Part shown: in pieces, positions 21,912-37,890 of the stretch | Layout: each line of letters opens with the position of its first letter | How positions within the stretch are numbered: position 1 is the stretch's first letter | DNA from: Pseudomonadota bacterium | Lineage (GTDB): Bacteria; Pseudomonadota; Gammaproteobacteria; Steroidobacterales; Steroidobacteraceae | Direction: 5' to 3' | DNA: 64,000 nt | Assembly: GCA_025351005.1 (NCBI GenBank) | Contig: JANXWS010000017.1 | Span: forward strand, 1-64,000 | The notes under the pieces: model-generated | What the model was told of the DNA's origin: nothing | Databases searched by the model: none | What the model saw: only the letters and a program-made list of their open reading frames with translations | Translations under genes and position numbers: made by a program

Positions 21912-23057
21912 TCACGCCTGCAGCAGCACCGCTGCGTCCGCGTCCCAGCTCAGGTACACCTCGTCGCTCCAGTCGATCGTCCATTCGAGCGTGCGGCGCT
22001 CGTTCTGCGCGAACGCCGTCAGCAGCTTGCCGCTTGCGGTCTTGATCTGGTAGGTCGAACGGTTGCCGAGGTAGCCGAGCTCCCAGACCACGCCTTTCAG
22101 CTGATTGCTCGAGCCGTCGCCGGCCGGCGTCTTGGTGAGACGGATCTTCTCCGGCCGCACCGCGACCCAGACCTGCTGGCCGACGCTGCAGTGGCCGCCG
22201 TTGTCGACGCTGAGGTCGCAGCCGAGCTCGGCGCTGTGCACGGTCACGAGCCCGGGCGCCGAGCCCGTCACGGTGCCCTCGAGCAGGTTGGCATTGCCGA
22301 AGAAGTCTGCGACGAAGCGCGTCTTCGGGAACTCGTAGACCTCCGCCGGCGTTCCCACCTGGATGACGGCGCCGTGATCCATGACCGCGATGCGGCTGGA
22401 CAATGCCATCGCCTCGTCCTGGTCGTGGGTGACGACGATGAACGTGATGCCGACCTCGTACTGCAGGTCCATCAGCTCGAATTGTGTGCTCTCGCGCAGC
22501 TTCTTGTCGAGCGCCGACAGCGGCTCGTCGAGCAGCAGCACCTTGGGCCGGCGGATGAGCGCCCGCGCGAGCGCGACGCGCTGCCGCTGACCGCCCGACA
22601 GCTGGTGCGGCTTGCGGCTGCCGAAGCCGCCCAGCTGCACCATCTCGAGCGCCTCGGCGATGCGCTGCGCGCGCGTGGCCGGGTCGAGCCCGAGGCGCTT
22701 CAGGCCGTAGCCGACGTTCGCCTCGACCGACATGTGCGGGAAGAGCGCGTAGGACTGGAACATCATGTTCACGGGCCGCTCGTAAGGCGGCACGTCCGTC
22801 ATGTCGACGTCGTCGATGACGATGCGGCCGGCAGTCGGGGTCACGAAGCCGGCGAGCATCCTGAGCAGCGTCGTCTTGCCGCAGCCCGAGGCGCCGACCA
22901 GCGCGAACATCTCGCCCCGGTAGATCGAGAGGCTGACGCTGCCGACCGCGGCGAGGGCACCGTAACTCTTGCCGATGCCCTCCAGCACGATCTGCGGCCG
23001 CGCCGCCGGGTCGAGCCACGGCCGATCGACGCCGGCCTGTCTCTGTGAGGCGATCAC
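21912..23057 (-). CDS. ABC transporter ATPase, PotA/PotG (polyamine/opine) type
   Basis: The 381-residue protein has Walker A GASGCGKTT (55-63), the Q-loop FQSYALFPHM, signature LSGGQRQRVALARAL, Walker B VLLLDEP, switch His in VVTHDQ, and a C-terminal TOBE regulatory domain. This is the CUT1/PotA-PotG class. GTG at 23057 was preferred to a GTG seven codons upstream because of an AGGGGGG ribosome site. No permease or binding protein gene is next to it. Two PotH/PotI-type permeases lie 12 kb away at 35455-37247 and lack an ATPase, so these are plausible partners. It follows the GcvT-like gene by 84 bases. Confidence 0.9.
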   Translation of the reverse strand: MIASQRQAGVDRPWLDPAARPQIVLEGIGKSYGALAAVGSVSLSIYRGEMFALVGASGCGKTTLLRMLAGFVTPTAGRIVIDDVDMTDVPPYERPVNMMFQSYALFPHMSVEANVGYGLKRLGLDPATRAQRIAEALEMVQLGGFGSRKPHQLSGGQRQRVALARALIRRPKVLLLDEPLSALDKKLRESTQFELMDLQYEVGITFIVVTHDQDEAMALSSRIAVMDHGAVIQVGTPAEVYEFPKTRFVADFFGNANLLEGTVTGSAPGLVTVHSAELGCDLSVDNGGHCSVGQQVWVAVRPEKIRLTKTPAGDGSSNQLKGVVWELGYLGNRSTYQIKTASGKLLTAFAQNERRTLEWTIDWSDEVYLSWDADAAVLLQA

Positions 23058-23141
23058 CGCGGAGGCCCCCCTGCGCACGCGCGGCGTTTGCCGCGCCTGA
23101 TCGAGCCTACCGGAGCCGTGGCCATCGTGGCAGCTCCGCGC

Positions 23142-24350
23142 CTAGCGATCCGCCGGCGGCGTCAGGCGCCGCCGCTCGGGCGCGAAGAACGGCCGCTCGA
23201 CCACCTGCGCCCTGACCATGCGCCGCTCCCAGACCAGCTCCCGGTTGAGGTAGATGTCGGCCCAGACGGCGTGGCCGGGTGCGAAGCAGGGCGCCTCCAC
23301 CATCGCGAGCGCGATGTTGCGCTTGCAGGTCGGCGACCACGCCGCGGACGTCACGCTGCCGACCTCGCGGCGGCCGCCGGCGTCGGCGTACAGCAGCGCA
23401 TGGTGCGCGGGCTTGTTGCCGCCGACGTCGAGCCCGACCAGCTGGCGGCGCGGTCCGCGCTGCCGCTCCGCGAGCAGCGCCCGCCGGCCGTTGAAATGCG
23501 GCTTGTCGAAATCGACCAGCCAGCCGAGGCCGAGCTCGAGCGGCGAGCGGTCGCGGCCGACGCGCACCGTGTGCTCGGCAGAGACGAAGTCGACGTTCGG
23601 CAGCAGGAAGCCGGCCTCGATGCGAGCCAGGTTCAGCGCCTGCGAGCCGATCGCGCGGATGCCGCGGCTCTGGCCCGCCGCCATCAGCTCGTCCCACGCG
23701 GTGAGTGCGTCGGCCGGGCGCATCCACAGCTCGTAGCCGAGATCGCCCGTGAAGCCGGTGCGCGAGGCCAGCAGCGGCCTTCCGCGGACCACGAACTCGC
23801 CGAGCTCGAACGGCTTCAGCCGCTCGATGCCGCTGAGCCCGAAGCGCTTGAGCACGCAGCAAGACGTCGGGCCCTGCACCGCGAGCGCCGCGATGGCCTC
23901 GGTGACCTCCTCGATCTCGACGTCGAAGCCGAGCGCCGAGTCCGAGAACCAGTCGAGCTGGCGCTCGGCCGTGCAGACGCGGAAGTCCTGCGCCCCGAAG
24001 CGGAACACCGTGCCGTCGTCGATGATGTGACCGGAGTCATTGCACCAGACGACGTAGCTGACGCGCCCGACCTTGAGCCTGCGGACGTCGCGGGTGACCA
24101 GCCGGTTCAGGTAGCGCTCGGCGTCCGGGCCCGAGACGCGGTACTTCACCATCGGCGTCAGGTCGTAGAGCGTCACGGCGTTCCTGATCGCGAAATACTC
24201 CTGCTCGACGCTCGTGAACACGTCGACCGTGGTGTAGCCCGCCCAGGCGACGAACTGGTCGTTCTGCTGCAGCGCGCGGGTGCGGGCGTCGAACGGCGTC
24301 TCGAGCAGCGGCTTGCGGAAGTGGTGCAGCGGCAGCGGTTCGGCGCGCAT
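23142..24350 (-). CDS. Stand-alone GcvT-fold aminomethyltransferase/demethylase-like protein
   Basis: The 402-residue protein consists only of the folate-binding GcvT barrel and its C-terminal domain: WAGYTTVDVF near the start, VKYRVSGPDAERYLNRL, RTGFTGDLGYELWM, and LNLARIEAGFLLPNVDF. The GcvT family includes the glycine-cleavage T protein, DMSP demethylase DmdA and vanillate demethylase LigM, all moving one-carbon groups to tetrahydrofolate. No glycine-cleavage H or P gene is nearby, so it is probably a specialised demethylase. It is part of an operon with two flavoproteins and an aminotransferase, and its ATG lies one base beyond the flavoprotein's stop. Its substrate is unknown. Confidence 0.85.
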   Translation of the reverse strand: MRAEPLPLHHFRKPLLETPFDARTRALQQNDQFVAWAGYTTVDVFTSVEQEYFAIRNAVTLYDLTPMVKYRVSGPDAERYLNRLVTRDVRRLKVGRVSYVVWCNDSGHIIDDGTVFRFGAQDFRVCTAERQLDWFSDSALGFDVEIEEVTEAIAALAVQGPTSCCVLKRFGLSGIERLKPFELGEFVVRGRPLLASRTGFTGDLGYELWMRPADALTAWDELMAAGQSRGIRAIGSQALNLARIEAGFLLPNVDFVSAEHTVRVGRDRSPLELGLGWLVDFDKPHFNGRRALLAERQRGPRRQLVGLDVGGNKPAHHALLYADAGGRREVGSVTSAAWSPTCKRNIALAMVEAPCFAPGHAVWADIYLNRELVWERRMVRAQVVERPFFAPERRRLTPPADR

Positions 24351-24351
24351 C

Positions 24352-25926
24352 TCAGGCCGCCTCCGCGAGCACGCGGCGCGCCGCGTTCCGCCCTGCGATG
24401 CCCATGACGCCGCCGCCCGGATGGCAGCTCGCCCCGCACAGGTACAGTCCCGCGACCGGCGTCTGGTGCTGGGCCGCGCCCGGTACCGGGCGCACCATGT
24501 AGAACTGGTCGAAGGCGAGCTCGCCGTGGTGCCAGTGGCCGCCGGTCGCCCCGAACTCGCGCTCCAGGTCGGCCGGCGTCAGCAGCTCCTCGGCGAGGAT
24601 CAGAGCGCCGATCCCGGGCGCGTGCGCCTCGAGCACCGCGCGGATCGCCGCGGCGAACCCCGCGCGCTCGCCGGCCCAGCCGCCCTCCGGCGCGTACGGT
24701 GCGTACTGCACGATCGCCGACAGCACGTGCCGGCCGGCCGGCGCGAGCGCCGGGTCGTTGAGGGTCGGCACCGTGATCTCGAGCGCCGGTGCCCGCGACC
24801 ACTCGCCGTACTTGCTGTGGTTCCAGGCGCGTTCGACGTAGTCGAGCGAGGGCGCGACCAGCAGCCGGCCGCCGAGCGCGTGCCGCCCGACGCCGGTGAA
24901 CACCGGCGCGCGCTCGAGCGCGAGGTGGAACTTGGCCGCGAGCCCGCGGCTCCGGTAGTGGTCGACGCGGCGCACGAAACCGGTGTCGAGATGCTCGGGC
25001 CCGAGCAGGCGCAGGAACGTGGTCCTGGCATCGGCGTTGGAGATCACGCGGCGGGCGCCGAGCGTCTCGCCGGACTCGAGCACGACGCCGCTGGCCCGGT
25101 CGTTGCTGACCTCGATGCGCTTCACGGCGGCGCCGGTGCGGATCGTCGCCCCGGCGTGCCGCGCCGCGTTCGCGAGCGCCTCGCTGACCGCGCCCATGCC
25201 GCCGACGGGCTGGGCGAGCGCGGCGCTGCCGGCGGCCCGCGTCGCCGCAAGCCGGTAGAGGAGCGTCAGCACCGTGCCGGGAGCCCGCGGCCCGAAGTTG
25301 GTGCCCAGCACGGCGTCGAGTCCGAGCGCGCCCTTGAGGAGCGGCGTCCCGAACTCGTCGTCCAGCAGATCGTAGGCGTTCATGCCGATGATGCGCAGGA
25401 ACTCGCGCATGTCGCGCCGACCGAGCAGCCGGAGCCTGAGCGCGAGCGTCCCGAGCGCGCGCCGGTCGCTCCACGACGCGGTGCCGAGGCGGGGCGGCGG
25501 CAGAGCCAGCAGGCCCTGCAGCAGGCCCGCAAAGCGGCCGAGCCGGGCCTCGAACGCGGGCCAGGCGCGCGCGTCGGCGGCCGAACAGGCGTCGAGCGCC
25601 GCGCGCTCCCCGAGCGCGAGCGGCCGGCCGTCCTCGCTCAGCGCGGTGCTCGGCAGCGCGCGACCCGCGAGCCTGAGTCCGTGCTCGGGCAGGCCGAGTT
25701 CGGCGATGAGCGCGGCCGGCATCTGGTGCAGCAGGTGGGCGCCGGCCGACACCCGGAATCCCGGCGCGAACTCGCGCGTCACCGCGAGTCCGCCCACCCG
25801 CTCCGCGGCCTCGAGCACGAGCACCGAGCGCCCGGCGCGGGCGAGGGTCGCGGCACAGACGAGCCCGTTGTGGCCGGCGCCGATGACGATCACGTCGTGC
25901 GGCGACGACGGGGCGGCGGCGCTCAC
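24352..25926 (-). CDS. FAD-dependent amine oxidase / phytoene desaturase-like oxidoreductase (A)
   Basis: The 524-residue protein has the N-terminal dinucleotide fold VIVIGAGHNGL (13-22), the GG doublet motif and ERVGG of the phytoene desaturase/PYROXD2 branch, and a C-terminal FAD-closing motif LYLCGASCHPGGGVMGIAGRNAARRVL. It likely oxidises an amine or C-C bond with FAD. Start is GTG at 25926, overlapping the upstream gene's stop (GTGA). It is clearly related to the next flavoprotein, sharing the last ~25 residues and the central LGTxxGPRxPG motif, so the pair arose by duplication and may form a heteromer. I do not recognise a characterised orthologue. Confidence 0.85.
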   Translation of the reverse strand: MSAAAPSSPHDVIVIGAGHNGLVCAATLARAGRSVLVLEAAERVGGLAVTREFAPGFRVSAGAHLLHQMPAALIAELGLPEHGLRLAGRALPSTALSEDGRPLALGERAALDACSAADARAWPAFEARLGRFAGLLQGLLALPPPRLGTASWSDRRALGTLALRLRLLGRRDMREFLRIIGMNAYDLLDDEFGTPLLKGALGLDAVLGTNFGPRAPGTVLTLLYRLAATRAAGSAALAQPVGGMGAVSEALANAARHAGATIRTGAAVKRIEVSNDRASGVVLESGETLGARRVISNADARTTFLRLLGPEHLDTGFVRRVDHYRSRGLAAKFHLALERAPVFTGVGRHALGGRLLVAPSLDYVERAWNHSKYGEWSRAPALEITVPTLNDPALAPAGRHVLSAIVQYAPYAPEGGWAGERAGFAAAIRAVLEAHAPGIGALILAEELLTPADLEREFGATGGHWHHGELAFDQFYMVRPVPGAAQHQTPVAGLYLCGASCHPGGGVMGIAGRNAARRVLAEAA

Positions 25927-27533
25927 TGCAGCGCCCCGCGGCCGAGATCGGCGAGCACGCGGCGTGCGGCGTTGGCGCCCGGCGCGCCCATCACGCCGCC
26001 GCCCGGGTGAGTGCAGGAGCCCGACAGGTACAGGCTCCGCACCGGCGTGCGGTACTGCGCGTAGCCGGGCACCGGGCGGTTGAACAGCAGCTGGTCCATC
26101 GTCAGCTCGCCCTGGAAGATGTTGCCCTCGGTGAGCCCGACCTCGTTCTCGATATCCCAGGGCGTGCGGATCTCGGCGTGCAGGATCAGGCTCTTGAAGT
26201 CCGGGCTTTGTCTTGCGATCGCGTCGATGACGGTGGCACCGAATTCCTGCCGGCGGGCGTCCGTCCAGGGGCCGGCGGCCAGCCGGTAGGGGCAATACTG
26301 CACGAACACGGACATGTAGTGCTTGCCGTCGGGCGCCATCGTCGGGTCGATCTGCGAGGGGATCAGCATGTCGACGTACGGCGCCGCCGACCAGCGGCCG
26401 TCCTTCCAGTCGTCGTAGGCGCGCTCCATCATGGCAATCGAGTCAGTGATGTGCAGGTCGCCACGGATGCAGGGCGAGCCGGCCGGGATCGCCGGGAAGG
26501 TCGGCAGGCCATCGAGCGCGATGTTGAGCTTGCCCGACGAGCCACGGATCTTGAAGCGCCGCACCGCCGTCAGGAACTCCTCGGGCAGGTGCTCGGGTGC
26601 GACGGCGTCGAGGAAGGTACGCTTGATGTCCAGGTTCGAGATCACGGTCGAGGCCTCCAGCTCCTCGCCGCTCGCGAGCGCGACGCCGCGGGCGCGACCG
26701 TTGCGGACCAGGATCTGCGCGACCGGCGCCCCGGTCCGCACCGCGCCACCGCTCGCCGCCAGCGAGGCCGCGAGCGCGCCGCTCACCGCCCCCATGCCGC
26801 CGCGCGCGAAGCCCCAGGCGCCGACCGTCTCGTCGATGTCGCCCATGTAGTGGTGCAGCAGCACGTAGGCGCTGCCCGGCGAGCGCGGCCCGAGCGCCGT
26901 GCCGATGATCGAGCTGCCGGCGAAGTGCGCCTTGACGATCTCGGTGTCGAAGTACTCGTCGAGGAAGTCGGCCGCGCTCATGGTCCAGAAGCGGATCGTG
27001 TCGTACATCCGCTGCTCGCCGACGCGGTACAGCCGCTGGCCCAGGTAGAGGAGCTCGCGGATGTCGCGCGGCCGGAACGAGGTCGGGTCGGGCGGCTCGT
27101 GCAGCAGGAGCGGCTTGATGAACTTGCACTGCCTGAGGACGTCGCGCGAGAAGCGCGTGTAGGCCTCGGCGTCGCGCTGCGAGTGTCGGGCGATCTCGCG
27201 CCTGAGCGCGTCGTGGTTGTCGTACAGCGCGAGGTGGCCACCGTCCCGCATCATCGTGCAGCCGCCCTCGTAGGGGATGATCTGCAGCCCGAAGCGCGGC
27301 AGCTCGAGCGTTCGCATGATCTCGGGCCGGAGCAGGCTGCAGACGTAGGAGCAGTTCGAGTAGGTGAAGTCCCGGTACAACCTGCGGCTGACGGCAGCGC
27401 CGCCGACGTAGTCGTTCTGCTCGAGCACCAGCACGTCGAGACCGGCGCGCGCCAGGTAGCAGGCGGCGACCAGCCCGTTGTGGCCGGCGCCGACGACGAT
27501 GACGTCGTGGCGTCGGCGGCCGGCGGCGGGCAT
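25923..27533 (-). CDS. FAD-dependent amine oxidase / phytoene desaturase-like oxidoreductase (B)
   Basis: The 536-residue flavoprotein has VIVVGAGHNGLVAACYLARAG at the N terminus, GGAAVS after the ribose-binding Glu, and the closing motif LYLSGSCTHPGGGVMGAPGANAARRVL. It is the same PYROXD2/desaturase-like class as the downstream copy. It starts at ATG 27533, 23 bases after the aminotransferase stop. The upstream in-frame extension is an out-of-frame shadow of the aminotransferase. In carotenoid producers such enzymes are desaturases, but no crtB, crtE or crtY gene is here and the surrounding genes deal with amines, so amine or betaine oxidation is more likely. The substrate is unknown. Confidence 0.85.
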   Translation of the reverse strand: MPAAGRRRHDVIVVGAGHNGLVAACYLARAGLDVLVLEQNDYVGGAAVSRRLYRDFTYSNCSYVCSLLRPEIMRTLELPRFGLQIIPYEGGCTMMRDGGHLALYDNHDALRREIARHSQRDAEAYTRFSRDVLRQCKFIKPLLLHEPPDPTSFRPRDIRELLYLGQRLYRVGEQRMYDTIRFWTMSAADFLDEYFDTEIVKAHFAGSSIIGTALGPRSPGSAYVLLHHYMGDIDETVGAWGFARGGMGAVSGALAASLAASGGAVRTGAPVAQILVRNGRARGVALASGEELEASTVISNLDIKRTFLDAVAPEHLPEEFLTAVRRFKIRGSSGKLNIALDGLPTFPAIPAGSPCIRGDLHITDSIAMMERAYDDWKDGRWSAAPYVDMLIPSQIDPTMAPDGKHYMSVFVQYCPYRLAAGPWTDARRQEFGATVIDAIARQSPDFKSLILHAEIRTPWDIENEVGLTEGNIFQGELTMDQLLFNRPVPGYAQYRTPVRSLYLSGSCTHPGGGVMGAPGANAARRVLADLGRGALQ

Positions 27534-27556
27534 GGGCGCGGGAGCCTGCTGCCTGC

Positions 27557-28882
27557 TCAGGCCGGGACCCTGTCCGCCCGGCGGCTGCGCAGCGTCAGGT
27601 CGACCGCAACCTGGAAGCCGCGCAGCGTGTCCGCGAGGCAGGAGTCGTCGTGCGCCGCCGAGATGAACCACGGCTCGCGCGAGTCCGGCTCGCACAGCAC
27701 GCCCTCGTCGTGCAGCAGCTGCGCCAGAGCGTCGTAGAACGCGTAGTCGCTGCTCTTCCAGGCGCGATAGTTGCGCGGCGGGTCGGCCGCGAAGTACAGC
27801 CCGAACATCGACGGGTGGCCGACGAAGCTGTGCGGGATGCCGCGCGCCGCGAGCACCGTCGCCATGCCCTTCATCAGGCGCCGGCCGTAGTCGGCGATGC
27901 GCTCGAGCGCATCCGTCTCGTCGAGGATCTCGAGGCACTTCTCGGCCGCGGCGAGCGACACCGAGTGGGCGGTGTAGGTGCCGCCGTGAGCGACGCCGCG
28001 CCCGAGCTTGCGCATGATGTCCGTGCGCCCGGCGAGCACCGAGATCGGGTAGCCGTTTGCGACCGCTTTCGCGAAGGTGCAGAGATCGGCGTTGACGCCG
28101 TAGAGCTGCTGCACGCCGCCGCGCGCGACCCGGAAGCCGGTCTTGACCTCGTCGATGAACAGCAGCACGCCGTGGCGGTCGCAGAGCGCGCGGGCCGCGC
28201 GCAGGTACTCGGGCTCCGCGGCAATGCCGAGGCAGTTGCCCATGATCGGCTCGATCAGCATGCAGGCGATCTTGCCGGCGTTGCGCCGGAAGGTGTCCTC
28301 GAGCTGGTTCAGGTCGTTCGCCTGCACGAAGTGCGCGAAGCTGCGGACGCCGAGTGGGATGCCCTGGCTGTACGGACGCACCTCGGGCTCGCCGACCTGG
28401 CCCCACTTCTCCATCGGCGTGTACCACATCGCGGCGTCGAACAGGCCGTGGTAGCTGCCCTCGAGGATGATGTAGTCGTCCTTGCCGGTGTAGGCGCGCG
28501 CGAGCCGGAGGCCCGCCATCACCGCCTCGGTGCCGGAGTTCGAGAAGCGCACCAGCTCGGCGGCCGGCACCATCTTCGCGATGCGCTCGGCGACGCGGAA
28601 CTCGCGCTCGGTGGAGAGCGCGAACACGCCGCCGACCTGCATGCCCTCGCGCGCCGCCGCATCGACGCGCGCATCGGCGTAGCCGAGGATCGCGGGGCCG
28701 TAGCCCAGCCGGTAGTCGACGTAGCGGTTGTCGTCGAGATCGGTGATGCGTGCGCCGCGCCCCTCCTTGACGTAAATGGTCTTGTCCTCGCCCCAGTAAC
28801 GGAAGTTCGAGGCGACACCGAGCGGCAGCCGCGTGACCGCCTTCTTCCAGTGCGCGTTGCTCTTCGTCAGGTTGCGCGGCAT
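27557..28882 (-). CDS. Class III PLP aminotransferase, glutamate-1-semialdehyde aminomutase-like
   Basis: The 441-residue enzyme has the fold-type I class III signatures: phosphate-binding SGTEAV (116-121), GSYHG (142-146), DEVKTGFR (244-251) with the PLP-ring Asp, and the Schiff-base Lys272 in FAKAVANGYP. The N-terminal part (NFRYWGEDKTIYVKEGRG) resembles GSA-aminomutase relatives that act on unusual amino acids. HemL function is unlikely because of the operon context and lack of haem genes. It is the first gene of the minus-strand run, with an AT-rich regulatory region and perfect palindrome upstream. It probably starts the pathway by removing or exchanging an amino group. Confidence 0.88.
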   Translation of the reverse strand: MPRNLTKSNAHWKKAVTRLPLGVASNFRYWGEDKTIYVKEGRGARITDLDDNRYVDYRLGYGPAILGYADARVDAAAREGMQVGGVFALSTEREFRVAERIAKMVPAAELVRFSNSGTEAVMAGLRLARAYTGKDDYIILEGSYHGLFDAAMWYTPMEKWGQVGEPEVRPYSQGIPLGVRSFAHFVQANDLNQLEDTFRRNAGKIACMLIEPIMGNCLGIAAEPEYLRAARALCDRHGVLLFIDEVKTGFRVARGGVQQLYGVNADLCTFAKAVANGYPISVLAGRTDIMRKLGRGVAHGGTYTAHSVSLAAAEKCLEILDETDALERIADYGRRLMKGMATVLAARGIPHSFVGHPSMFGLYFAADPPRNYRAWKSSDYAFYDALAQLLHDEGVLCEPDSREPWFISAAHDDSCLADTLRGFQVAVDLTLRSRRADRVPA

Positions 28883-29178
28883 GGCGGGTCCCTCGGTCTG
28901 GCCGCAGTGCCGGCGGCGGGTCGGCTCGCGGGGGCGGCGGCGGCGAATGAATGCAGAGATTTTATATGATCATATAACTGCACGCGAGCCTGCACTGCAG
29001 CATCTGCGTCGGCGCGAGCGGTCGTCCTTGGTCTGCTGTATAAGAATCATAACTAACTGTTTTATAACATTAAAAACTGATCATTTTGGCACCGGTCCGG
29101 ACTCTATCCGGGCTTGCCCGGCAGGGCCTTTCAGGCGTAAATTGAATATTCGTACAACAGATGACAGGGGCGCGACGG
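28883..29178. promoter_or_regulatory. AT-rich divergent promoter region between aminotransferase and Rieske genes
   Basis: This 296-base gap is the most AT-rich stretch of the window. Besides the palindrome listed separately it contains GTTTT (29059-29063) and AAAAC (29073-29077) as a second inverted repeat. TATAAC at 29063-29068 could serve as a -10 element towards the Rieske genes. Near 29134-29160 there is another AT-rich patch just ahead of the coding start. The strong composition drop fits a tightly regulated bidirectional promoter. No small gene is evident. Confidence 0.5.
28962..28977. promoter_or_regulatory. Perfect 16-bp palindrome (operator candidate)
   Basis: TTATATGATCATATAA is a perfect palindrome 80 bases upstream of the aminotransferase start. 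Short AT-rich palindromes centred on GATC of this type are typical of FadR/VanR-subfamily GntR repressors; that family link is an inference from operator shape only. No GntR gene is in the window. It is distinct from the interrupted repeat at 16403-16423. Confidence 0.55.
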
Positions 29179-30345
29179 ATGGCCACCGCAGCACACCGTG
29201 ACAGCGATCGGGCGGACGCGCCGGCGGCGCGCCGCGCGTTGCCGGCGTGGGTCTACGACCACCCCGAGATGACCCGCCTCGAGGTCGAGCGCATCCTGCG
29301 GCCGAGCTGGCAGATCGGCGCGCACGTGAGCTCGGTGCCGCACCCGGGCGACTTCGTGACCTTCGACCTCGGCGCCGACAGCATCGTCGTGCTGCGCGAC
29401 AAGCAGCGGCAGCTGCGCGCCTATCACAACGTCTGCCGCCATCGCGGCGCGCGCCTGCTCGACGGCAGCGGCCGCTGCCCCGGCACGATCGTCTGCCCGT
29501 ACCACGGCTGGTCGTACACCTACGACGGCGCGCTGCTCGGCGTGCCGGGCCGGGACACGTTTCCGGACCTCGACCGCGCGAGTCACGGGCTGAAGCCGGT
29601 CAAGGTCGAGGTGCTGCTGGGCTTCGTGTTCGTCTGCCTCGCCGGCGACCCGCCGCCGCTCGCCGCGCGCTTCGAGCCGTTCCTCGAGGAGCTCGCGCCC
29701 TACCGCTTCGAGGCGATGGTGCCGCTGACGCCGGTCACGCACGAGGAGTGGGACGTCGACTGGAAGATCGCGATGGACAACTACCTCGAGTCCTACCACG
29801 TGCCGATCGGCCACCCGGGACTCAACCGGATGTTCACGCCCGACTACGACGACCAGAAGGGCGCGAGGGGCATCGCCCGCGGCACCAGCTGGCTGCGCGA
29901 GCAGCCTTCGCGACGCTGGAGCGAGCGCCTCTACCAGCAGCTGGTCGGCCCCACGGTCACGCACCTGCCCGAGGAGCTGCGCCGCGCCTGGCGGTTCTAC
30001 AGCCTGCTGCCAAACCTCGGCATCGACGTCTACCCCGAGCTCATGGACTTCTTCCAGGTGCTGCCGCGCGGCCCGGGCAAGTGCTCGATCCGCTACGCGA
30101 TCTTCGGCCTGCCGGACGAGCGTCGCGAGATGCGCGTGCTGCGCGCGCTCAGCAACCGCATCAACAACCAGGTCAACAACGAGGACCGGGCGCTGTGTGC
30201 GCGCGTGCAGCGCGGCCTGCAGTCGCCGAGCTACACGCCGGGACCGCTGTCGAGCATCGAGACGTGGATGACCGAGTTCCACGCGCTGCTCGAGCGCAAC
30301 ATACCGGAGATCCGGTTGCCGACGCCGCCGGCGCGCTTCGCCTGA
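29179..30345 (+). CDS. Rieske ring-hydroxylating-type oxygenase alpha subunit (1)
   Basis: The 388-residue protein has a Rieske domain with Cys86-x-His88 and Cys106-x2-His109 (NVCRHRG, CPYHGW) and a catalytic domain with the mononuclear-iron motif DNYLESYHVPIGHPG (His207, His212) and the acidic third ligand in NNEDRALC. The GbcA/carnitine/stachydrine class of Rieske oxygenases demethylates or cleaves betaines; this protein fits that size and pattern. The first ATG at 29161 has no ribosome site, whereas 29179 follows CAGGGG, so the latter was chosen. A second Rieske gene follows after 21 bases. No reductase subunit gene is nearby, so electrons must come from a general ferredoxin reductase. Confidence 0.88.
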   Translation: MATAAHRDSDRADAPAARRALPAWVYDHPEMTRLEVERILRPSWQIGAHVSSVPHPGDFVTFDLGADSIVVLRDKQRQLRAYHNVCRHRGARLLDGSGRCPGTIVCPYHGWSYTYDGALLGVPGRDTFPDLDRASHGLKPVKVEVLLGFVFVCLAGDPPPLAARFEPFLEELAPYRFEAMVPLTPVTHEEWDVDWKIAMDNYLESYHVPIGHPGLNRMFTPDYDDQKGARGIARGTSWLREQPSRRWSERLYQQLVGPTVTHLPEELRRAWRFYSLLPNLGIDVYPELMDFFQVLPRGPGKCSIRYAIFGLPDERREMRVLRALSNRINNQVNNEDRALCARVQRGLQSPSYTPGPLSSIETWMTEFHALLERNIPEIRLPTPPARFA

Positions 30346-31870: not shown

Positions 31871-32086
31871 CTACTTGGCGGCCTCGTACTTGAACGACAC
31901 CTTGACCTTGGCGCGGTAGGCCTTGATCTTGCCGTTCTCGATCAGCAGGTCGAGCTCCCCTATCTCGGCGACCCGCAGGTCGCGCAGGGTCTTCGCGGCT
32001 CGCTGCACCGCTGCGGCAGCGGCCTTTTCCCAGGACTGCGTGCTCGTCCCGACCAGTTCGATGACCTTGTAGACGCTCTCAGCCAT
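31871..32086 (-). CDS. Dodecin family flavin-binding protein
   Basis: The 71-residue protein has the complete dodecin pattern: MAESVYKVIELVGTS, then SWEKAAAAAVQRAAKTLRDL and IGELDLLIENGKIKAY. Trp at about residue 18 lies in the usual place for stacking on flavin. Dodecins form hollow dodecamers that store or buffer FMN/FAD and protect against free flavin. The ATG at 32086 follows GGGGGGA at nine bases; the 13-residue upstream extension was rejected. It lies between a Rieske operon and an aldehyde dehydrogenase in a window rich in flavoenzymes, several with covalent FAD or FMN, which may explain a flavin-storage need. No partner is implied. Confidence 0.92.
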   Translation of the reverse strand: MAESVYKVIELVGTSTQSWEKAAAAAVQRAAKTLRDLRVAEIGELDLLIENGKIKAYRAKVKVSFKYEAAK

Positions 32087-32276
32087 GGTCGTGTCCCCCC
32101 GGTAATGTTGTGGCGGCCCGGTCATCCGCTTCGCCGGACCGCTCCTCGCATGATGCGCTTAGCCTGCGCCCAGAATAAAGTTGCCGTCACCCGTCCGGCC
32201 GCCCGTCGGCACGGTCCCACGGCACGCGGCTCCGCTGCCGCGGCACCCGGTCCCACCGCGTCGGGCGGCCGCCGGC

Positions 32277-33770
32277 CTAGCCCAGATGGATCCAGGCCGA
32301 CTTCGTCTGCGTGTAGCCGAGCAGGCTCTCGAGGCACTTGTCGCGTCCCTGGCCCGACTGCTTGTAGCCGCCGAACGGCTGGGTCATGTCGCCGTGGTCG
32401 AAGCAGTTGACCCAGATGACGCCGGCCTCGAGGTCGCGCACCGCCTTGTGCGCCTTGTTGAGGTCGCGGGTCCACACCGAGGCGGCAAGCCCGTAGGTCG
32501 AGTCGTTCGCGACCCTGAGCGCCTCCTCGAGGCCGTCGACGACGATGGTCGCTGCGACCGGTCCGAAGATCTCCTCCTGGGCGATCGTCATGCGGTTCTG
32601 GACGCCTGAAAAGAGCGTCGGGTTGACGTAGCTGCCCGGCAAATCCGGGATGTCGCCGCCGAACTCGAGCCGCGCCCCCTCGCGCTTGCCACGCTCGATG
32701 TAGCCGACGACCCGCGAGCGGTGCGCGGCGGTGACGAGCGGTCCCAGGTTGGTGGCCGGGTCGAGCGGGTCGCCGGCGCGGTAGGCCGTGCGGCCGCGCT
32801 CGATGAAGCGCGCGACGAAAGCCTCGGCGATCGGCTGGTCGACCAGCAGCCGCGACCCGGCGTTGCAGACCTCGCCCATGTTGCCGAAGATGCCGTTGAT
32901 CGCGTAGCTCACTGCACGGTCGAGGTCGTCGAGGTCGGCGAGGAAGATCTGCGGCGACTTGCCGCCGCACTCGAGGCTGACACGCTTCATGTTCGACTGG
33001 CCGGCGTACACCAGCATGAGCTTGCCGACCTCGGTGGAGCCCGTGAAGCCGATCTTGTTGACGTCGCGGTGCAGCGCGAGCGGCGCACCGGTGGCCTCGC
33101 CGAGGCCATTGACGACGTTGAAGACGCCGGCCGGACCGCCGGCCTCGATGAAGAGCTCGGCGAGCAGGAGCCCCGACAGCGGCGACTGCTCGGCCGGCTT
33201 CAGCACGACCGAGTTGCCGGCGGCGAGCGCCGGTGCCACCTTCCAGGCAGCCATCAGCAGCGGGTAATTCCACGGCACGATGCAGCCGACGACGCCCAGC
33301 GGCTCGCGCAGGATGTAGTGAAACGCGTCGGCCGCGGTCGCGGTGACGGCGCCGTCGATCTTGTCGCTGAGCTCGGCGAAGTAGGCGAAGGTCGTCGCCG
33401 CCGCGGGCACGTCGCTCGCCAGCATGTCGCTGATCGGCTTCCCCATGCAGAGCGTGTCGAGCAGCGCGAAGCGTTCGCCATTCGCATCGATCAGGCCCGC
33501 GAGGCGCGTCAGCACGCCGAGCCGCTCGCGGGGCGCCATGCGCCGCCACGTGCCGCGCGCGAACGCGCGGCGTCCGCTGGCGACCGCCCGGTCGACGTCG
33601 GCCGCGGTGCCCGCGGACACCTCGCAGAGCACGCTGCCGGTTGCGGGGTTCGTGACCGTGAAACGGCCGCCGCCGCCCAGCACGTGCTCGCCGTCCAGGA
33701 AGTGGCCGGTCGGGTAGGACAGCGCGCCCGCGCGGGCGTGCCATTCGCGGGTGCTGTGGGCAGTGGTCAT
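32277..33770 (-). CDS. NAD(P)-dependent aldehyde dehydrogenase, betaine/aminobutyraldehyde type
   Basis: The 497-residue protein has all ALDH catalytic residues: Asn168 in PWNYP, Glu267 in LECGGKSP, and the nucleophile Cys302 in GEVCNAGSR. FTGSTEVGK is the NAD pocket. By look it belongs with gamma-glutamyl-gamma-aminobutyraldehyde (PuuC) and betaine-aldehyde dehydrogenases. It follows the TetR-Rieske fusion gene with an ATGA overlap (33767-33770), so regulator and enzyme are co-translated. Given the BetI-like regulator domain and the choline-dehydrogenase-type GMC gene 4 kb away, betaine aldehyde is a reasonable substrate, with aminoaldehydes from polyamines as the alternative because PotH/PotI-type permeases are divergent. 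Confidence 0.9.
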   Translation of the reverse strand: MTTAHSTREWHARAGALSYPTGHFLDGEHVLGGGGRFTVTNPATGSVLCEVSAGTAADVDRAVASGRRAFARGTWRRMAPRERLGVLTRLAGLIDANGERFALLDTLCMGKPISDMLASDVPAAATTFAYFAELSDKIDGAVTATAADAFHYILREPLGVVGCIVPWNYPLLMAAWKVAPALAAGNSVVLKPAEQSPLSGLLLAELFIEAGGPAGVFNVVNGLGEATGAPLALHRDVNKIGFTGSTEVGKLMLVYAGQSNMKRVSLECGGKSPQIFLADLDDLDRAVSYAINGIFGNMGEVCNAGSRLLVDQPIAEAFVARFIERGRTAYRAGDPLDPATNLGPLVTAAHRSRVVGYIERGKREGARLEFGGDIPDLPGSYVNPTLFSGVQNRMTIAQEEIFGPVAATIVVDGLEEALRVANDSTYGLAASVWTRDLNKAHKAVRDLEAGVIWVNCFDHGDMTQPFGGYKQSGQGRDKCLESLLGYTQTKSAWIHLG

Positions 33771-35362
33771 TCGGCGTCTCCAGGGTTGCGGGCGCCGCCC
33801 GGCAGCAGCCGGGCGATCGTCTGGCGAAAGGCCACGAGCAGGGCAGGCGCGGTCGCGACCGCCCCGGGCCGGTAGTCCGGGGATTCTAGGCCGCGCTGCA
33901 CGGATTCCGCGAATGCGACCTCGTCGCGGAGCCGCGCCCGCAGCAGGCGCGCGCCCAGGTAGGCGAGCGCGCGCTCGGGCGGCATGGCGGCGGCACGCGG
34001 ATACAGGTGGGCCCGCAGCCGGCAGCGGCCAGGGGCCTCCGGCACGGCTTGCAGCACGACCAGGCCGCCCGGCCCGGTCTCGAGCCACTGGTTGGGAGCC
34101 ACGAACGCGGCGGCGGCCGGCCGCGATGGCGCGAGCGGGGCGATGCTGGCCGCGCGTTCGGCGCTCCACGAGCGCGCCGGCCTGCGCTCGAGCCACTGCT
34201 CGACCACGACCTTCCAGTCGGCGGCGACGCTGCACTCGCGGATCGTCGGCGCGCCCAGTCCGGCGCCGCCCAGCGCCTCGAGCGCCTGCGGCCAGGCAGC
34301 GTCCCGGCTGCCCGGCGCGCGCACGAACCAGAGGCCGTGGACGTCGGCGAGCTCGAGCGGCGCGAGCGGACCACCGGGCGTCTCGCCGTGCGCCGTGCCG
34401 TCGAGGTCGTACTCGAGCGCATGCAACGGGCAGGCGAGCGGCGCGCTGATGCGACCGCTGCGCTTCATCACCAGCGCGTGCGGGCGCTGCCGGCACTCGT
34501 TGTGGAACGCGCGCACGACGCCGGCGCCGTCCCGGAGCACGAGTGCGCGCTGCCCGGGGCCGTCGAGGGTCAGGAAGGTGCCGGCCTTGGCGAGCTCGAA
34601 GGCCGCGCCCGCGAACTGCCAGGCACCACGGAACAGCTGCTGCCGCTCGGCGTCGTAGAGCGCAGCGCTCGCATATGCCGTCGCCGGCAGCGGCGCGCCG
34701 GGCGTCGCGAGCGGACGCGCGAACGCCGCCGGGAACACCGAGCGCAGGTAGGCGAGCGCCCGGCGCCGCGCCGCGTCGCGGTCGATCGCCGACTCGGTCT
34801 GGAACGCGAAGCCCTGCCAGAGCATCTCGAGCACGCCGATCAGCCCGAGCGCGATCGCGTCGGCGTCGAGCTGCAGTGCGCGGCTACGCTCGATCAGGGT
34901 GCCGATCAGCTCGCGCACCAGCGTCTCGAACTTGCTGTCGCGCGTGCCGCAGATCTCGAAATACTCCGCTCGCGAGCTCGCCTCACCCCAGAACGAGTAC
35001 CACACACTCACCTTGCGCGCGCTCGCGATGCCGGCGCCGAGGTAGATCGCGACCAGCCGCTCGAGCGCAAGCACCGGGTCGTTCTTCAGCGCCGCCACCG
35101 GCACGAGCAGCAGCTCCTCGAACTCCGCGGCCAGGAACTCGAGCGAGGCGACCAGCATCGCGTCCTTCGACTCGAAGTAGAACCTGACGATGCCCGGCGA
35201 CATGCGCGCGATCGCGACCACCTTGCCGACGGTGGTCTTGGAGGGGCCGTGCACGTGCAGCGCCGAGATGCAGGCCTCGATCAGACGCTGGCGTTGACGG
35301 GCGCGCGTGGCTCGCGGATGGGTCGGCAACGCAGCCGCGGCCTTGCGTCGCGTCCGGCTCAT
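33767..35362 (-). CDS. TetR (BetI-like) regulator fused to a degenerate Rieske oxygenase domain
   Basis: One uninterrupted 531-residue frame joins two families. Residues 20-210 are a TetR protein of BetI type: helix-turn-helix TTVGKVVAIARMSPGIVRFY (43-62) and a BetI-like C-terminal domain with WYSFWGEA. Residues 225-530 align with Rieske oxygenases, from LPATAY to VQRGLESPDYRPG, but are degenerate. The Rieske site keeps Cys290, Cys311 and His314 while the first His is Gln292 (ECRQR). The iron helix EQWLERRPARSWS has Pro395 and Ser400 where two His are expected, and the carboxylate is Glu481. Catalysis is therefore very unlikely; the domain may sense the oxygenase substrate or product. The gene is ATGA-coupled to an aldehyde dehydrogenase and divergent from two permeases, its probable targets. 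A sequencing fusion seems unlikely. Confidence 0.87.
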   Translation of the reverse strand: MSRTRRKAAAALPTHPRATRARQRQRLIEACISALHVHGPSKTTVGKVVAIARMSPGIVRFYFESKDAMLVASLEFLAAEFEELLLVPVAALKNDPVLALERLVAIYLGAGIASARKVSVWYSFWGEASSRAEYFEICGTRDSKFETLVRELIGTLIERSRALQLDADAIALGLIGVLEMLWQGFAFQTESAIDRDAARRRALAYLRSVFPAAFARPLATPGAPLPATAYASAALYDAERQQLFRGAWQFAGAAFELAKAGTFLTLDGPGQRALVLRDGAGVVRAFHNECRQRPHALVMKRSGRISAPLACPLHALEYDLDGTAHGETPGGPLAPLELADVHGLWFVRAPGSRDAAWPQALEALGGAGLGAPTIRECSVAADWKVVVEQWLERRPARSWSAERAASIAPLAPSRPAAAAFVAPNQWLETGPGGLVVLQAVPEAPGRCRLRAHLYPRAAAMPPERALAYLGARLLRARLRDEVAFAESVQRGLESPDYRPGAVATAPALLVAFRQTIARLLPGGARNPGDAE

Positions 35363-35454
35363 CGCGCCGCCGCTCCGGCGGCCGCCCTTCCCGAGCGGGC
35401 GTGCGTCGGGCAGACTGCAGCCGCGTGGCAGGCTGGCGGCAGGGGAGCGGACGC

Positions 35455-36414
35455 GTGGCGCGGCTCAGCGACAGGAACGGCATCGGCGCGGCGGGTCGCG
35501 CGCCCGGTGCGCGCGGCCGCCTCGGGGCACTGGTCGCCCGCCACGGCCGCTGGCTGATCATCGCGCCGCCGCTCCTGTTCCTGCTGGTGTTCTTCCTGAT
35601 TCCATTCGGCTTCGCGCTCAAGATCAGCTTTGCCGAAGCCGCGCTCAGGATCCCGCCGTTCAGCGATGTCTTCAGCGTGTCCGCCGATCACCGGCTGCAT
35701 CTGTCGCTCAGCCTCGCCAACTACAAGTACCTTCTGACCGACGAAGTGTATGCGGTTTCGTACCTGTACTCGATTCGGACGGCCTTCTTCTCGACGCTGC
35801 TGTGCCTGCTGATCGGCTACCCGATGGCCTACGCGATGGCCAGGGCCTCGAAGGGCGCGCAGGGCATCCTGATGCTGGTGATCATCCTGCCGTTCTGGAC
35901 CTCGTTCCTGCTCCGCGTCTACGCGCTCGAGGGCATCATTCGCGACAATGGCCTGCTGAACAGCGCACTGCTGTGGCTCGGGATCATCGAGCACCCGCTC
36001 CGGATCATGCGCACGACCCTGGCGGTCTACCTGGGCATCGTCTACTCCTACCTGCCGTTCATGATCCTGCCGCTGTACGCAACGCTCGAGAAGCTCGACC
36101 GCACGCTGCTCGAGGCGGCTGCCGACCTCGGCAGCAAGCCGTGGCAGGCGTTTCGCGACGTGACGCTGCCGCTGTCGATGCCCGGCATCATCGCGGGATC
36201 GATGCTGGTGTTCATCCCGGCGATCGGCGAGTACGTGATCCCGGCACTGCTCGGTGGCCCGGACAACCTGATGATCGGCCGCGTGCTGTGGGACGAGTTC
36301 TTCGCGAACCACGACTGGCCGGTGGCGGCGGCGGTGTCGATCGCGTTCCTGGTGCTGCTGGTCGGGCCGATCGCGGTGCACCAGCACTACCGCGTCCGAC
36401 AGCTCGAGCACTAG
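35455..36414 (+). CDS. ABC transporter permease, PotB/PotH type
   Basis: The 319-residue protein has six predicted membrane helices after a basic N terminus and the cytoplasmic EAA loop EAAADLGSKPWQAFRDVTLP typical of polyamine/opine permeases. The GTG at 35455 follows GGGGAG at seven bases; a GTG 18 codons upstream was rejected. It starts 92 bases from the divergent TetR-Rieske fusion gene, so that regulator probably controls it. The second permease begins two bases after its stop. No binding protein or ATPase is next to the pair; the ATPase at 21912-23057 is a possible partner. Confidence 0.9.
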   Translation: MARLSDRNGIGAAGRAPGARGRLGALVARHGRWLIIAPPLLFLLVFFLIPFGFALKISFAEAALRIPPFSDVFSVSADHRLHLSLSLANYKYLLTDEVYAVSYLYSIRTAFFSTLLCLLIGYPMAYAMARASKGAQGILMLVIILPFWTSFLLRVYALEGIIRDNGLLNSALLWLGIIEHPLRIMRTTLAVYLGIVYSYLPFMILPLYATLEKLDRTLLEAAADLGSKPWQAFRDVTLPLSMPGIIAGSMLVFIPAIGEYVIPALLGGPDNLMIGRVLWDEFFANHDWPVAAAVSIAFLVLLVGPIAVHQHYRVRQLEH

Positions 36415-36416
36415 CG

Positions 36417-37247
36417 GTGGACCGGCGCAACTCACCGTTCCTGATCTCCGTACTGTGCCTGGGGATCGCGTTCCTGTACCTGCCGATGGCGGTGCTGATC
36501 GCCTATTCGTTCAACGCTTCGGCGCTCGCGAGCGTGTGGGGCGGCTTCTCGACCGCGTGGTACACGGAGCTGGTGCACAACCGGCAGATCCTGAGCGCCG
36601 CGGCGCTGTCGCTGCAGGTCGCGGCGCTCGCCTCGACCGGCGCGCTCGTGCTGGGGACGCTGGCCGCCATCGCGCTCGTGCGCTTCACGAAGTTCCGCGG
36701 CCGGCTGCTGCTGGCCGGCATGGTCAACGCGCCGCTGGTGATGCCCGAGATCATCACCGGCATCACTCAGCTGCTCCTGTTCGTGTCGATGCTGCAGCTG
36801 ATCGGCTGGCCGAGCCGCGGCATGACGACGATCGTGATCGCGCACGTCGCGTTCTGTACCGCCTACGTGACGGTCACGGTCCAGTCGCGGCTGCAGAGCG
36901 CCGACCGTTCGCTCGAGGAAGCGGCGATGGACCTGGGCGCGAGCCCGTTGCAGGCCTTCGTGGACGTGACGCTGCCGATCATCCTGCCGGCGCTCGTCTC
37001 GAGCTGGCTCTTGAGCTTCACGCTGTCGCTCGACGACCTGGTGATCTCGAGCTTCGTGTCCGGGCCGCGCTCGAGCACGCTGCCGATGGTGATCTACTCG
37101 AAGGTCAAGCTCGGCGTCAGCCCCGACATCAACGCGCTCGCGAGCCTGATCATCACCGGCGTCGGCGCCTGCGTACTGATCGCGGGCTACGTGCTGCGCC
37201 GGGCCGAGCGAGGGCGGCAGGCGGAGGTCCTGCAGGCCGCCGGCTGA
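36417..37247 (+). CDS. ABC transporter permease, PotC/PotI type
   Basis: The 276-residue protein is the second inner-membrane subunit: six helices and the EAA loop EAAMDLGASPLQAFVDVTLP. SFTLSLDDLVISSFVSGP is characteristic of PotC/PotI. Start is GTG 36417, two bases after the stop of the partner permease, with weak ribosome site, so translation is probably coupled. Polyamine-type importers of this class also carry opines, putrescine and compatible solutes; the local genes favour a methylated amine. The next gene is convergent 11 bases away. Confidence 0.9.
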   Translation: MDRRNSPFLISVLCLGIAFLYLPMAVLIAYSFNASALASVWGGFSTAWYTELVHNRQILSAAALSLQVAALASTGALVLGTLAAIALVRFTKFRGRLLLAGMVNAPLVMPEIITGITQLLLFVSMLQLIGWPSRGMTTIVIAHVAFCTAYVTVTVQSRLQSADRSLEEAAMDLGASPLQAFVDVTLPIILPALVSSWLLSFTLSLDDLVISSFVSGPRSSTLPMVIYSKVKLGVSPDINALASLIITGVGACVLIAGYVLRRAERGRQAEVLQAAG

Positions 37248-37258
37248 CCCGTCGGGCG

Positions 37259-37840
37259 TCACGCGGGGTCTGCGCCGACGTAGCGCGGGTCGAAGGCCGG
37301 CCGCGTGAAAACCTCGCGCACCAGTGGCTCGAAGCTTGCGAGCGGCGCGGTCGCATAATCCGGGTCGAACGACGCCTGGTCCCAGCGCTCGCAGAACGAC
37401 GCGCAGGCGTCGAACCAGCGGTGGCCGCGCAGGCGTTCGCGGCCGTGGCGGTCGCGGCCGTGGTGGTGGGCGTAGTAGTAGCTCTGGAAGAGGCCGTGCT
37501 GCAGGACGATCCAGGTCACTTCGGGGCGCACGTACGGGCGCAGCACGCCGGCCGCGACCTCGGCGTGGTTGCAGGGCGCGATGTCGTCGCCCAGATCGTG
37601 CAGCAGCGCGGCCACCACGAGCTCGATGTCGGCGCCGTCGCTGCGCGCCCGCGTCGCGGTCTGCAACGAGTGCGTCAGGCGGCTGACGGGGTAGCCCTGC
37701 AGGCCGTCGCCGAGCCGGTTGAGGGCCGTGAGCACGCGCTCCGGCAGCGTCCCCAGGTAAGTCTTCTCGAGCGACTCGAGGAGTTCGTAGTCGGCGCGCG
37801 TGCCGTGCTGCATCTGGCGAAAGCTGACGGTGCCGGTCAT
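37259..37840 (-). CDS. HD-domain protein, PhnZ/TmpB-like diiron oxygenase candidate
   Basis: The 193-residue protein has an HD fold with candidate metal ligands His57 (THSLQTA), His81-Asp82 (ALLHDLGD), His92 (NHAEVAAG), His115 (LQHGLFQ) and a later Asp (144 or 154). The 24-residue step from the first His to the HD pair equals that in PhnZ, the mixed-valence diiron oxygenase that cleaves hydroxyphosphonates, and in TmpB, which yields glycine betaine. The two PhnZ gating residues (Tyr24, Glu27) are replaced here by Leu48 and Tyr50, so the substrate probably differs. A plain phosphohydrolase is the alternative. Of two ATGs after GGGGAG the second (37840) has proper spacing. It follows the GMC gene by 50 bases on the same strand. 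Confidence 0.7.
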   Translation of the reverse strand: MTGTVSFRQMQHGTRADYELLESLEKTYLGTLPERVLTALNRLGDGLQGYPVSRLTHSLQTATRARSDGADIELVVAALLHDLGDDIAPCNHAEVAAGVLRPYVRPEVTWIVLQHGLFQSYYYAHHHGRDRHGRERLRGHRWFDACASFCERWDQASFDPDYATAPLASFEPLVREVFTRPAFDPRYVGADPA

Positions 37841-37890
37841 CGACATCTCCCCGCGGTCCGGAGGCCTGCGCCCGGCGCCGGCCCGTGCCG

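Follow-up and report, generated by a model that had tools for sequence, protein, structure and literature searches.

Introduction

Regulators of the MocR/GabR type, for example GabR and EnuR, combine a GntR winged helix with an aminotransferase-like domain (PMC6917764, PMC8739950, PMC5320631). IscR and RsrR are Rrf2-family regulators that exert redox control through a [2Fe-2S] cluster, whose ligands in RsrR are Cys, Glu, and His (PMC12594620). In the ThnA3/ThnY system of the tetralin pathway, a Rieske-type ferredoxin feeds into the regulation of its own catabolic pathway (PMC3771892). The carnitine monooxygenase CntA and the stachydrine demethylase Stc2 are group V Rieske oxygenases (PMC10952381). 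The ligands of CntA are Cys86, His88, Cys106, and His109 together with His208, His213, and Asp323, with Glu205 as a bridging residue, and its electrons pass between subunits (PMC7948474). Here, we describe a gene in a 64,000-nucleotide stretch of a Steroidobacteraceae genome (assembly GCA_025351005.1, contig JANXWS010000017.1, positions 1 to 64,000), hereafter the window, that joins a BetI-type TetR regulator to a degenerate Rieske oxygenase on one chain. An initial annotation of the window knew of no described regulator of this architecture, and no TetR-Rieske regulator was found in the literature searched, a provisional result given that most subscription journals lay outside its coverage.

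The fusion gene and its recurrence

The gene is a single frame of 531 open codons beginning with ATG, and its TGA overlaps the ATG of an aldehyde dehydrogenase gene as ATGA; frame, strand, length, and coupling are all as first annotated. The gene and its parts are the following.

33767..35362, minus strand: TetR-pseudo-Rieske-oxygenase fusion gene, 531 amino acids; a single, recurrent frame with both domain types
34721..35305, minus strand: BetI-type TetR half, residues 20-214 (helix-turn-helix about 28-72; TetR_C_6 100-210), from Pfam and from TetR structures
34328..34690, minus strand: Rieske-like subdomain, residues 225-345 (Pfam Rieske 248-325)
34478..34495, minus strand: loop 1, Cys290-x-Gln292-x-Pro294-His295; canonical His gone, His295 invariant
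34421..34432, minus strand: loop 2, Cys311-x-x-His314, from alignment counts
33803..34246, minus strand: oxygenase catalytic domain remnant, residues 373-520 (Ring_hydroxyl_A 406-520), its model aligned with CntA and Stc2
34166..34189, minus strand: site of the missing mononuclear-iron His-x4-His helix and loop, residues 392-399, located by aligning the protein to intact fusions and to standalone oxygenases

The two halves named in the initial annotation, a BetI-like TetR regulator and a Rieske oxygenase-like domain, were both recovered by Pfam above cut-off in the window protein: TetR_C_6 scores 37.4 bits (cut-off 27), Rieske 29.4 bits (cut-off 20.3), and Ring_hydroxyl_A 43.2 bits (cut-off 24.9), while TetR_N at residues 28-72 falls just under its cut-off of 24 with 21.5 bits. 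The protein misses the BetI equivalog TIGR03384 (61.3 versus 201.3 bits), being BetI-like rather than BetI, as well as the equivalog of the glycine betaine monooxygenase GbcA (NF058607; 71.2 versus 670 bits). No GntR helix-turn-helix or aminotransferase-like domain of the MocR/GabR kind appears in its Pfam scan at E 0.1. Both domains and the fold identify the second half as a member of the Rieske oxygenase superfamily by descent.

A pattern-based scan covering 84,980 species genomes yielded 51 loci. Open window-type fusion frames are present in 38 of these, including L061, which is truncated at a contig end. The other 13 comprise L038 with an in-frame TAG, three loci cut by contig ends (L052, L074, and L086), four with TetR and remnants (L077-L080), and five with TetR only (L081-L085). 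The TAG of L038, at 8931-8933 of that locus, lies inside the Rieske half, downstream of both metal loops. The window protein and its 38 relatives form an alignment of 39 rows, A1, in which Pfam (E up to 0.01) finds TetR_C_6 and TetR_N in 39/39, Rieske in 38/39, and Ring_hydroxyl_A in 20/39. A stop between residues 210 and 230 was looked for and none was found in the 39 aligned frames; nor are the two parts always separate genes with intact ligands, as fused homologues exist.

In a profile search of 217 genomes of the family, at least 39 matches span TetR through Rieske, including that of the window and five with intact ligands. Among the matches listed for 369 genomes of the class, three fusions were found beyond that of the window (L087-L089). 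Among those listed for 398 genomes of the phylum, there was no fusion except that of the window, and TetR and oxygenase gave separate matches, as in G521, where they lie about 7.5 kb apart; the class and phylum searches scored three candidates per genome, so absence there is weak evidence. No place in 72,556 plasmid records covered 80% of the fusion protein. The family in which the fusion occurs consists mostly of uncultured bacteria.

Metal sites in the window protein and its relatives

Column counts refer to alignment A1, in which 285 columns of the Rieske half were ranked by conservation. Four residues of the two loops are kept almost throughout: Cys290 and His295 in 38/38 rows, Cys311 in 38/39, and His314 in 39/39. 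The sole exception is L076, in which loop 1 is gone and Tyr replaces Cys311; as far as the alignment indicates, the metal site is lost there as a unit. Position 292, the place of the canonical first Rieske His, ranks only 207th of the 285 columns and holds nine residue types (R 10, Q 7, V 7, H 6, A 3, E 2, K 1, S 1, I 1). With Gln292 in the window protein and the canonical His absent in 32/38 rows, the CxH motif required of an active oxygenase is missing from these proteins. The initial annotation correctly gave Gln292, Cys290, Cys311, and His314. It overlooked His295, a second His three positions further along the loop. As this residue does not vary, the site should be called altered and not just broken.

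The mononuclear iron site of the window protein is gone. The interval from Trp383 to Pro423 spans 41 residues, compared with 82-84 in five intact fusions and one standalone oxygenase (RO1, described below); Pro395 and Ser400 are therefore not substituted His ligands, as first proposed, since the whole His-x4-His stretch has been deleted. Glu481 does stand opposite the carboxylate position as annotated, but the column is unconserved, with E in 11/38 rows. Because its mononuclear iron site is gone, the window protein should not be an oxygenase, and to this extent the earlier description of a catalytically dead protein holds.

Across the 39 rows the same interval ranges from 21 residues (13 rows) to 76. 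In L053, L054, L059, L064, and L065 it is near full length, and the His residues are replaced rather than deleted. His-x4-His is gone in 37/39 rows, the window included, and kept in L063 and L069, where it stands two residues closer to Trp383 than it does in intact forms; L071 retains one of the two iron-site His. A uniform deletion of the iron site across the clade is ruled out by this spread of lengths and by the two rows that keep the motif. Eight further fusions (L028, L029, L087, L088, L089, and L177-L179) are TetR-oxygenase proteins with all ligands. The fusion itself recurs in 38 relatives, but the three ligand losses first noted are not shared by every relative: the eight intact fusions keep all ligands, and two rows of the window-type clade keep His-x4-His.

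The pattern was also checked outside A1 in 25 further stretches. A fusion frame was called in 24 of them, the other, L158, having already been listed with internal stops. Sixteen of the 24 duplicate rows of A1, and the remaining eight are five window-type fusions and three close to L028. All five window-type proteins (L157, L159, L169, L172, and L175), at most 77% identical to any A1 row, keep C-x4-H and C-x2-H, and none has His292 or His-x4-His. The three near L028 (L177-L179) keep every ligand. Equivalents of Cys290, His295, Cys311, and His314 are also kept in L038, L052, and L074, which are broken or cut further on.

Predicted fold and selection

AlphaFold2 run on A1 gave a model with a mean predicted local distance difference test (pLDDT) score of 89.7, the Rieske half lying mostly above 90. 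Foldseek and VIA-align place the oxygenase half closest to CntA, Stc2, and NagG (Z about 26, root-mean-square deviation 3.1-3.5 over 286-314 residues), and the TetR half matches TetR structures with Z about 19-20. For the 25 pairs that are closest among 740, the Rieske half has a ratio of nonsynonymous to synonymous substitution (omega), calculated by NG86 without correction for the strong guanine-cytosine bias, of 0.19-0.46. For RO1 the median is 0.20 (17 pairs), and three comparisons among L048, L057, and L066 give 0.43-0.53. The Rieske half is under purifying selection, with weaker constraint than its TetR partner.

Evolutionary history of the fusion

In a tree of the TetR halves, the intact fusions fall outside the window-type clade, with L089 as its sister. 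The TetR-only loci L081-L085 and the remnants L077-L080 nest inside the clade; L081-L085 have therefore lost the Rieske half, and a pre-fusion state for them is ruled out by this nesting. L063, L069, and L071 branch near the base of the clade; they may be intermediates and, judged by their residues, cannot be called dead. Position 292 has switched between His and other residues at least four times. In another family, L095 has a TetR with a shrunken oxygenase remnant.

A single origin of all fused oxygenase halves is rejected by the approximately unbiased (AU) test (p 0.004), as is one origin for the window-type clade and L089 alone (p 0.001), while one origin for the window-type clade and the L028 group is not rejected (p 0.225). 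This pattern calls for two or more fusions or for a single domain exchange; the branches of L089 and L095 are long, and their placement is unsure. One family offers a readable series with many comparable stages, from separate TetR and oxygenase genes through fusions with all ligands and near-complete forms (L063 and L069) to proteins in which the iron ligands are replaced, then deleted, and on to remnants and TetR alone.

Gene neighborhood and upstream region

The genes around the fusion, and one element upstream of it, are listed below.

21912..23078, minus strand: ATP-binding cassette (ABC) transporter ATPase (Pfam ABC_tran and TOBE_2)
23142..24350, minus strand: GCV_T folate-binding aminomethyltransferase-like protein (Pfam)
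24355..27550, minus strand: two flavin adenine dinucleotide (FAD) amine-oxidoreductase-like genes, limits approximate (Pfam Amino_oxidase)
27557..28882, minus strand: class III aminotransferase, GntE/HemL-like (domain and family matches)
29161..30345, plus strand: RO1, intact standalone Rieske oxygenase, found in 35/45 loci L036-L080
30367..31560, plus strand: RO2, second intact standalone Rieske oxygenase, found in 11/45 loci L036-L080
32277..33770, minus strand: aldehyde dehydrogenase (Pfam Aldedh), ATGA-coupled to the fusion and present here in part of the related loci
35387..35416, minus strand: candidate operator or promoter element from the upstream alignment; it begins with AGTCTGC, and in most cases GGAAG follows at constant spacing
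35401..36414, plus strand: PotH-type permease (PRK10683 match from residue 39 only)
36420..37247, plus strand: PotI-type permease, start approximate (BPD_transp_1, synteny)

The fusion is divergent from polyamine-type PotH and PotI permease genes, as initially annotated, in almost every locus whose flank is long enough; L050 is one exception. The true PotH start probably lies downstream of the listed GTG at 35401, nearer 35500, because the match to the PotH model begins only at residue 39. On the other side of the fusion stand RO1, the aminotransferase, and the FAD genes, in some loci the aldehyde dehydrogenase, and, farther away, the GCV_T protein and the ABC ATPase. Ten loci miss RO1; seven of these are contig-end cuts and three are real (L069, L071, and L078). 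The breakdown of glycine betaine involves an oxygenase step on the quaternary amine and FAD-dependent demethylations with a folate protein. The gene set here, with final aminotransferase and aldehyde dehydrogenase steps, would fit the catabolism of an omega-trimethylammonio compound.

Upstream of the fusion, AGTCTGC occurs ungapped in 11/39 regions, all from close relatives of the window, and the region 35363-35454 put forward earlier for the operator is reasonable as a proposal, as it includes this element. A palindrome search of the upstream regions found only a modest excess over shuffled sequences at some spacings. In a different subclade, a second conserved element, approximately ATTGTGC-N2-GATAAAcT, lies upstream of L044, L046-L048, L051, L055-L057, L066, L067, and L072.

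Three further features of the surroundings were noted. A gene for the flavin-binding protein dodecin lies between RO2 and the aldehyde dehydrogenase (window 31871-32125, minus strand). An HD-domain protein (window 37259-37846, minus strand) stands beside PotI in many loci; its matches to PhnZ/TmpB-type oxygenases are weak and lie below the cut-off. The loci that have lost the Rieske half, L081-L085, are rearranged, with RO1, TetR, and PotH (and PotI where covered) on one strand.

A proposed non-catalytic regulatory module and its alternatives

The computational results (the fusion itself, its recurrence, the loss of the iron site, the pattern of conservation, the predicted fold, the purifying selection, and the synteny) point to a repressor of the adjacent quaternary-amine locus that carries a non-catalytic pseudo-oxygenase regulatory module built around a metal site, a reading to which we give close to, though short of, an even chance. 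A BetI-type TetR repressor of the adjacent uptake and demethylation genes would have been joined to a copy of a pathway-type group V Rieske oxygenase. In the window protein that half has lost its iron site but keeps its predicted fold and remains under selection, with Cys290, His295, Cys311, and His314 as putative ligands. The metal site may hold an altered [2Fe-2S] cluster rather than zinc and could make the activity of the repressor depend on oxygen, redox, or iron-sulfur status; DNA and a quaternary ammonium effector would be bound by the TetR half. The sensor function first suggested for the oxygenase half is plausible.

A narrower form of this reading is doubtful in its full detail. It holds that the first Rieske His ligand has shifted by three residues, giving a C-x4-H and C-x2-H site that acts as an oxygen- or redox-responsive [2Fe-2S] switch, and that this switch evolved from a pathway-type enzyme through the full-ligand fusions that survive in relatives. 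A newly gained ligand at His295 is ruled out, the residue being present in CntA and, as an equivalent, in 7/8 intact fusions (Ser in L089). By comparison of these sequences, His295 appears to be old, and what is new is that it stayed invariant where position 292 became free; His295 may have taken over the ligand role.

Several observations weigh against the regulatory-module reading. His292 is still present in 6/38 rows of A1, and L063 and L069 have not only CxH, including His292, and CxxH but also His-x4-His, together with an Asp close to the acid position; given these two, the clade, as judged from its residues, is not uniformly dead. CntA carries His91 at the place of His295, beside the true ligand His88, and the invariance of His295 may reflect an older, non-ligand role. 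The TetR half, with an omega of 0.06-0.21 in the same set of pairs, evolves more slowly than the Rieske half. On the TetR tree the metal loops underwent no fewer than five changes of state (43 rows keeping, 11 lacking), changes read as losses that include the five TetR-only genomes and mark the half as dispensable. To judge from such repeated loss, the Rieske half is not essential to TetR, and for that reason its part would be to adjust the repressor, not to make it work. The conserved upstream element, too, is a candidate operator or promoter only.

The foremost alternative, which we consider unlikely, is a structural or ligand-binding pseudo-oxygenase, in which the four conserved residues hold zinc or simply stabilize the fold. 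The half would then sense the quaternary ammonium compound on which the pathway acts, or help the protein to oligomerize, with no redox role. The likeness of the half to the quaternary-ammonium oxygenases CntA and Stc2, the choline-binding BetI type of the TetR_C_6 half, and a Cys2His2 spacing that is also compatible with zinc are all in keeping with it, but the stretch that is missing is the iron-site helix and loop, which lie next to the substrate in true oxygenases, and a substrate-pocket signature was not identified.

Rather improbable is a passenger relic, in which read-through produced the fusion and the oxygenase half is slowly decaying with no function beyond not harming TetR. Such decay would agree with the losses on the TetR tree, with what remains of the half in L077-L080 and in L095, with the in-frame TAG of L038, with the stops inside the G910 copy, and with the weaker constraint relative to the TetR half; an omega well below 1, invariant Cys, His, Trp, and Pro columns, a high-confidence predicted fold, and open frames in 39 rows speak against it.

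It is very improbable that the fused half is still an enzyme that can act to some degree as an oxygenase or in electron transfer, perhaps by forming mixed trimers with RO1, which would supply the iron site. The proximity of RO1 in most loci, the passage of electrons between subunits in CntA (PMC7948474), and the His-x4-His of L063 and L069 favor this view, against which stand the missing His-x4-His and canonical Rieske His in nearly all and most rows, respectively. Two genes wrongly joined in assembly or annotation is hardly credible, for although the window comes from a draft genome in 90 contigs, 38 relatives in other genomes hold the same open frame and nine of the L036-L076 contigs exceed 200 kb, so that recurrence already refutes an assembly accident.

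Comparison with known systems

Two other unusual fusions were noted. In the same genome but outside the window, L005 1507-3558 (plus strand; contig C42:105571-107619) encodes a 683-residue fusion of a BetI-type TetR with a betaine-aldehyde-dehydrogenase-like aldehyde dehydrogenase; it has a nearly full-length match in 11/60 relatives, its own genome included, and elsewhere its best match is to the aldehyde dehydrogenase part alone. In genome G128, L098 679-2568 (plus strand) joins DUF3865, which is haem-oxygenase-like, to a Rieske oxygenase on one chain.

The fusion resembles the choline-responsive TetR repressor BetI in its TetR_C_6 domain and in having choline-dehydrogenase-like and aldehyde dehydrogenase genes nearby, and differs from it in falling far below the BetI model score and in carrying a second half. 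CntA and Stc2 are the nearest solved sequences to this second half and among the nearest structures; both differ from the window protein in having the iron-site His-x4-His and the first Rieske His. A very similar set of gene types is found on the Shinella zoogloeoides plasmid NZ_CP086611.1 (TetR, ABC transporter, aminotransferase, two FAD oxidoreductases, aminomethyltransferase, and ring-hydroxylating oxygenase), where the BetI-like TetR and the Rieske oxygenase are separate, unfused genes.

ThnA3/ThnY is a looser parallel, made up of separate proteins that act with a LysR-type activator and involving no TetR fusion. IscR and RsrR provide a precedent for redox control by a [2Fe-2S] cluster; unlike them, the fusion is a TetR protein with a Rieske-derived half, in which a cluster is only putative. 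If the Cys2His2 site does bind a cluster, the fusion would bring an Rrf2-like redox input into a TetR protein and would serve as a test of a Rieske ligand moving along its loop. The MocR/GabR regulators, in which an enzyme-derived domain serves for sensing, share with the fusion the joining of a DNA-binding domain to an enzyme-derived one, and differ in the DNA-binding family, in the enzyme, and in using pyridoxal phosphate as opposed to a possible metal site. Enzyme-derived regulators are already known, and the TetR-Rieske fusion would add another sort.

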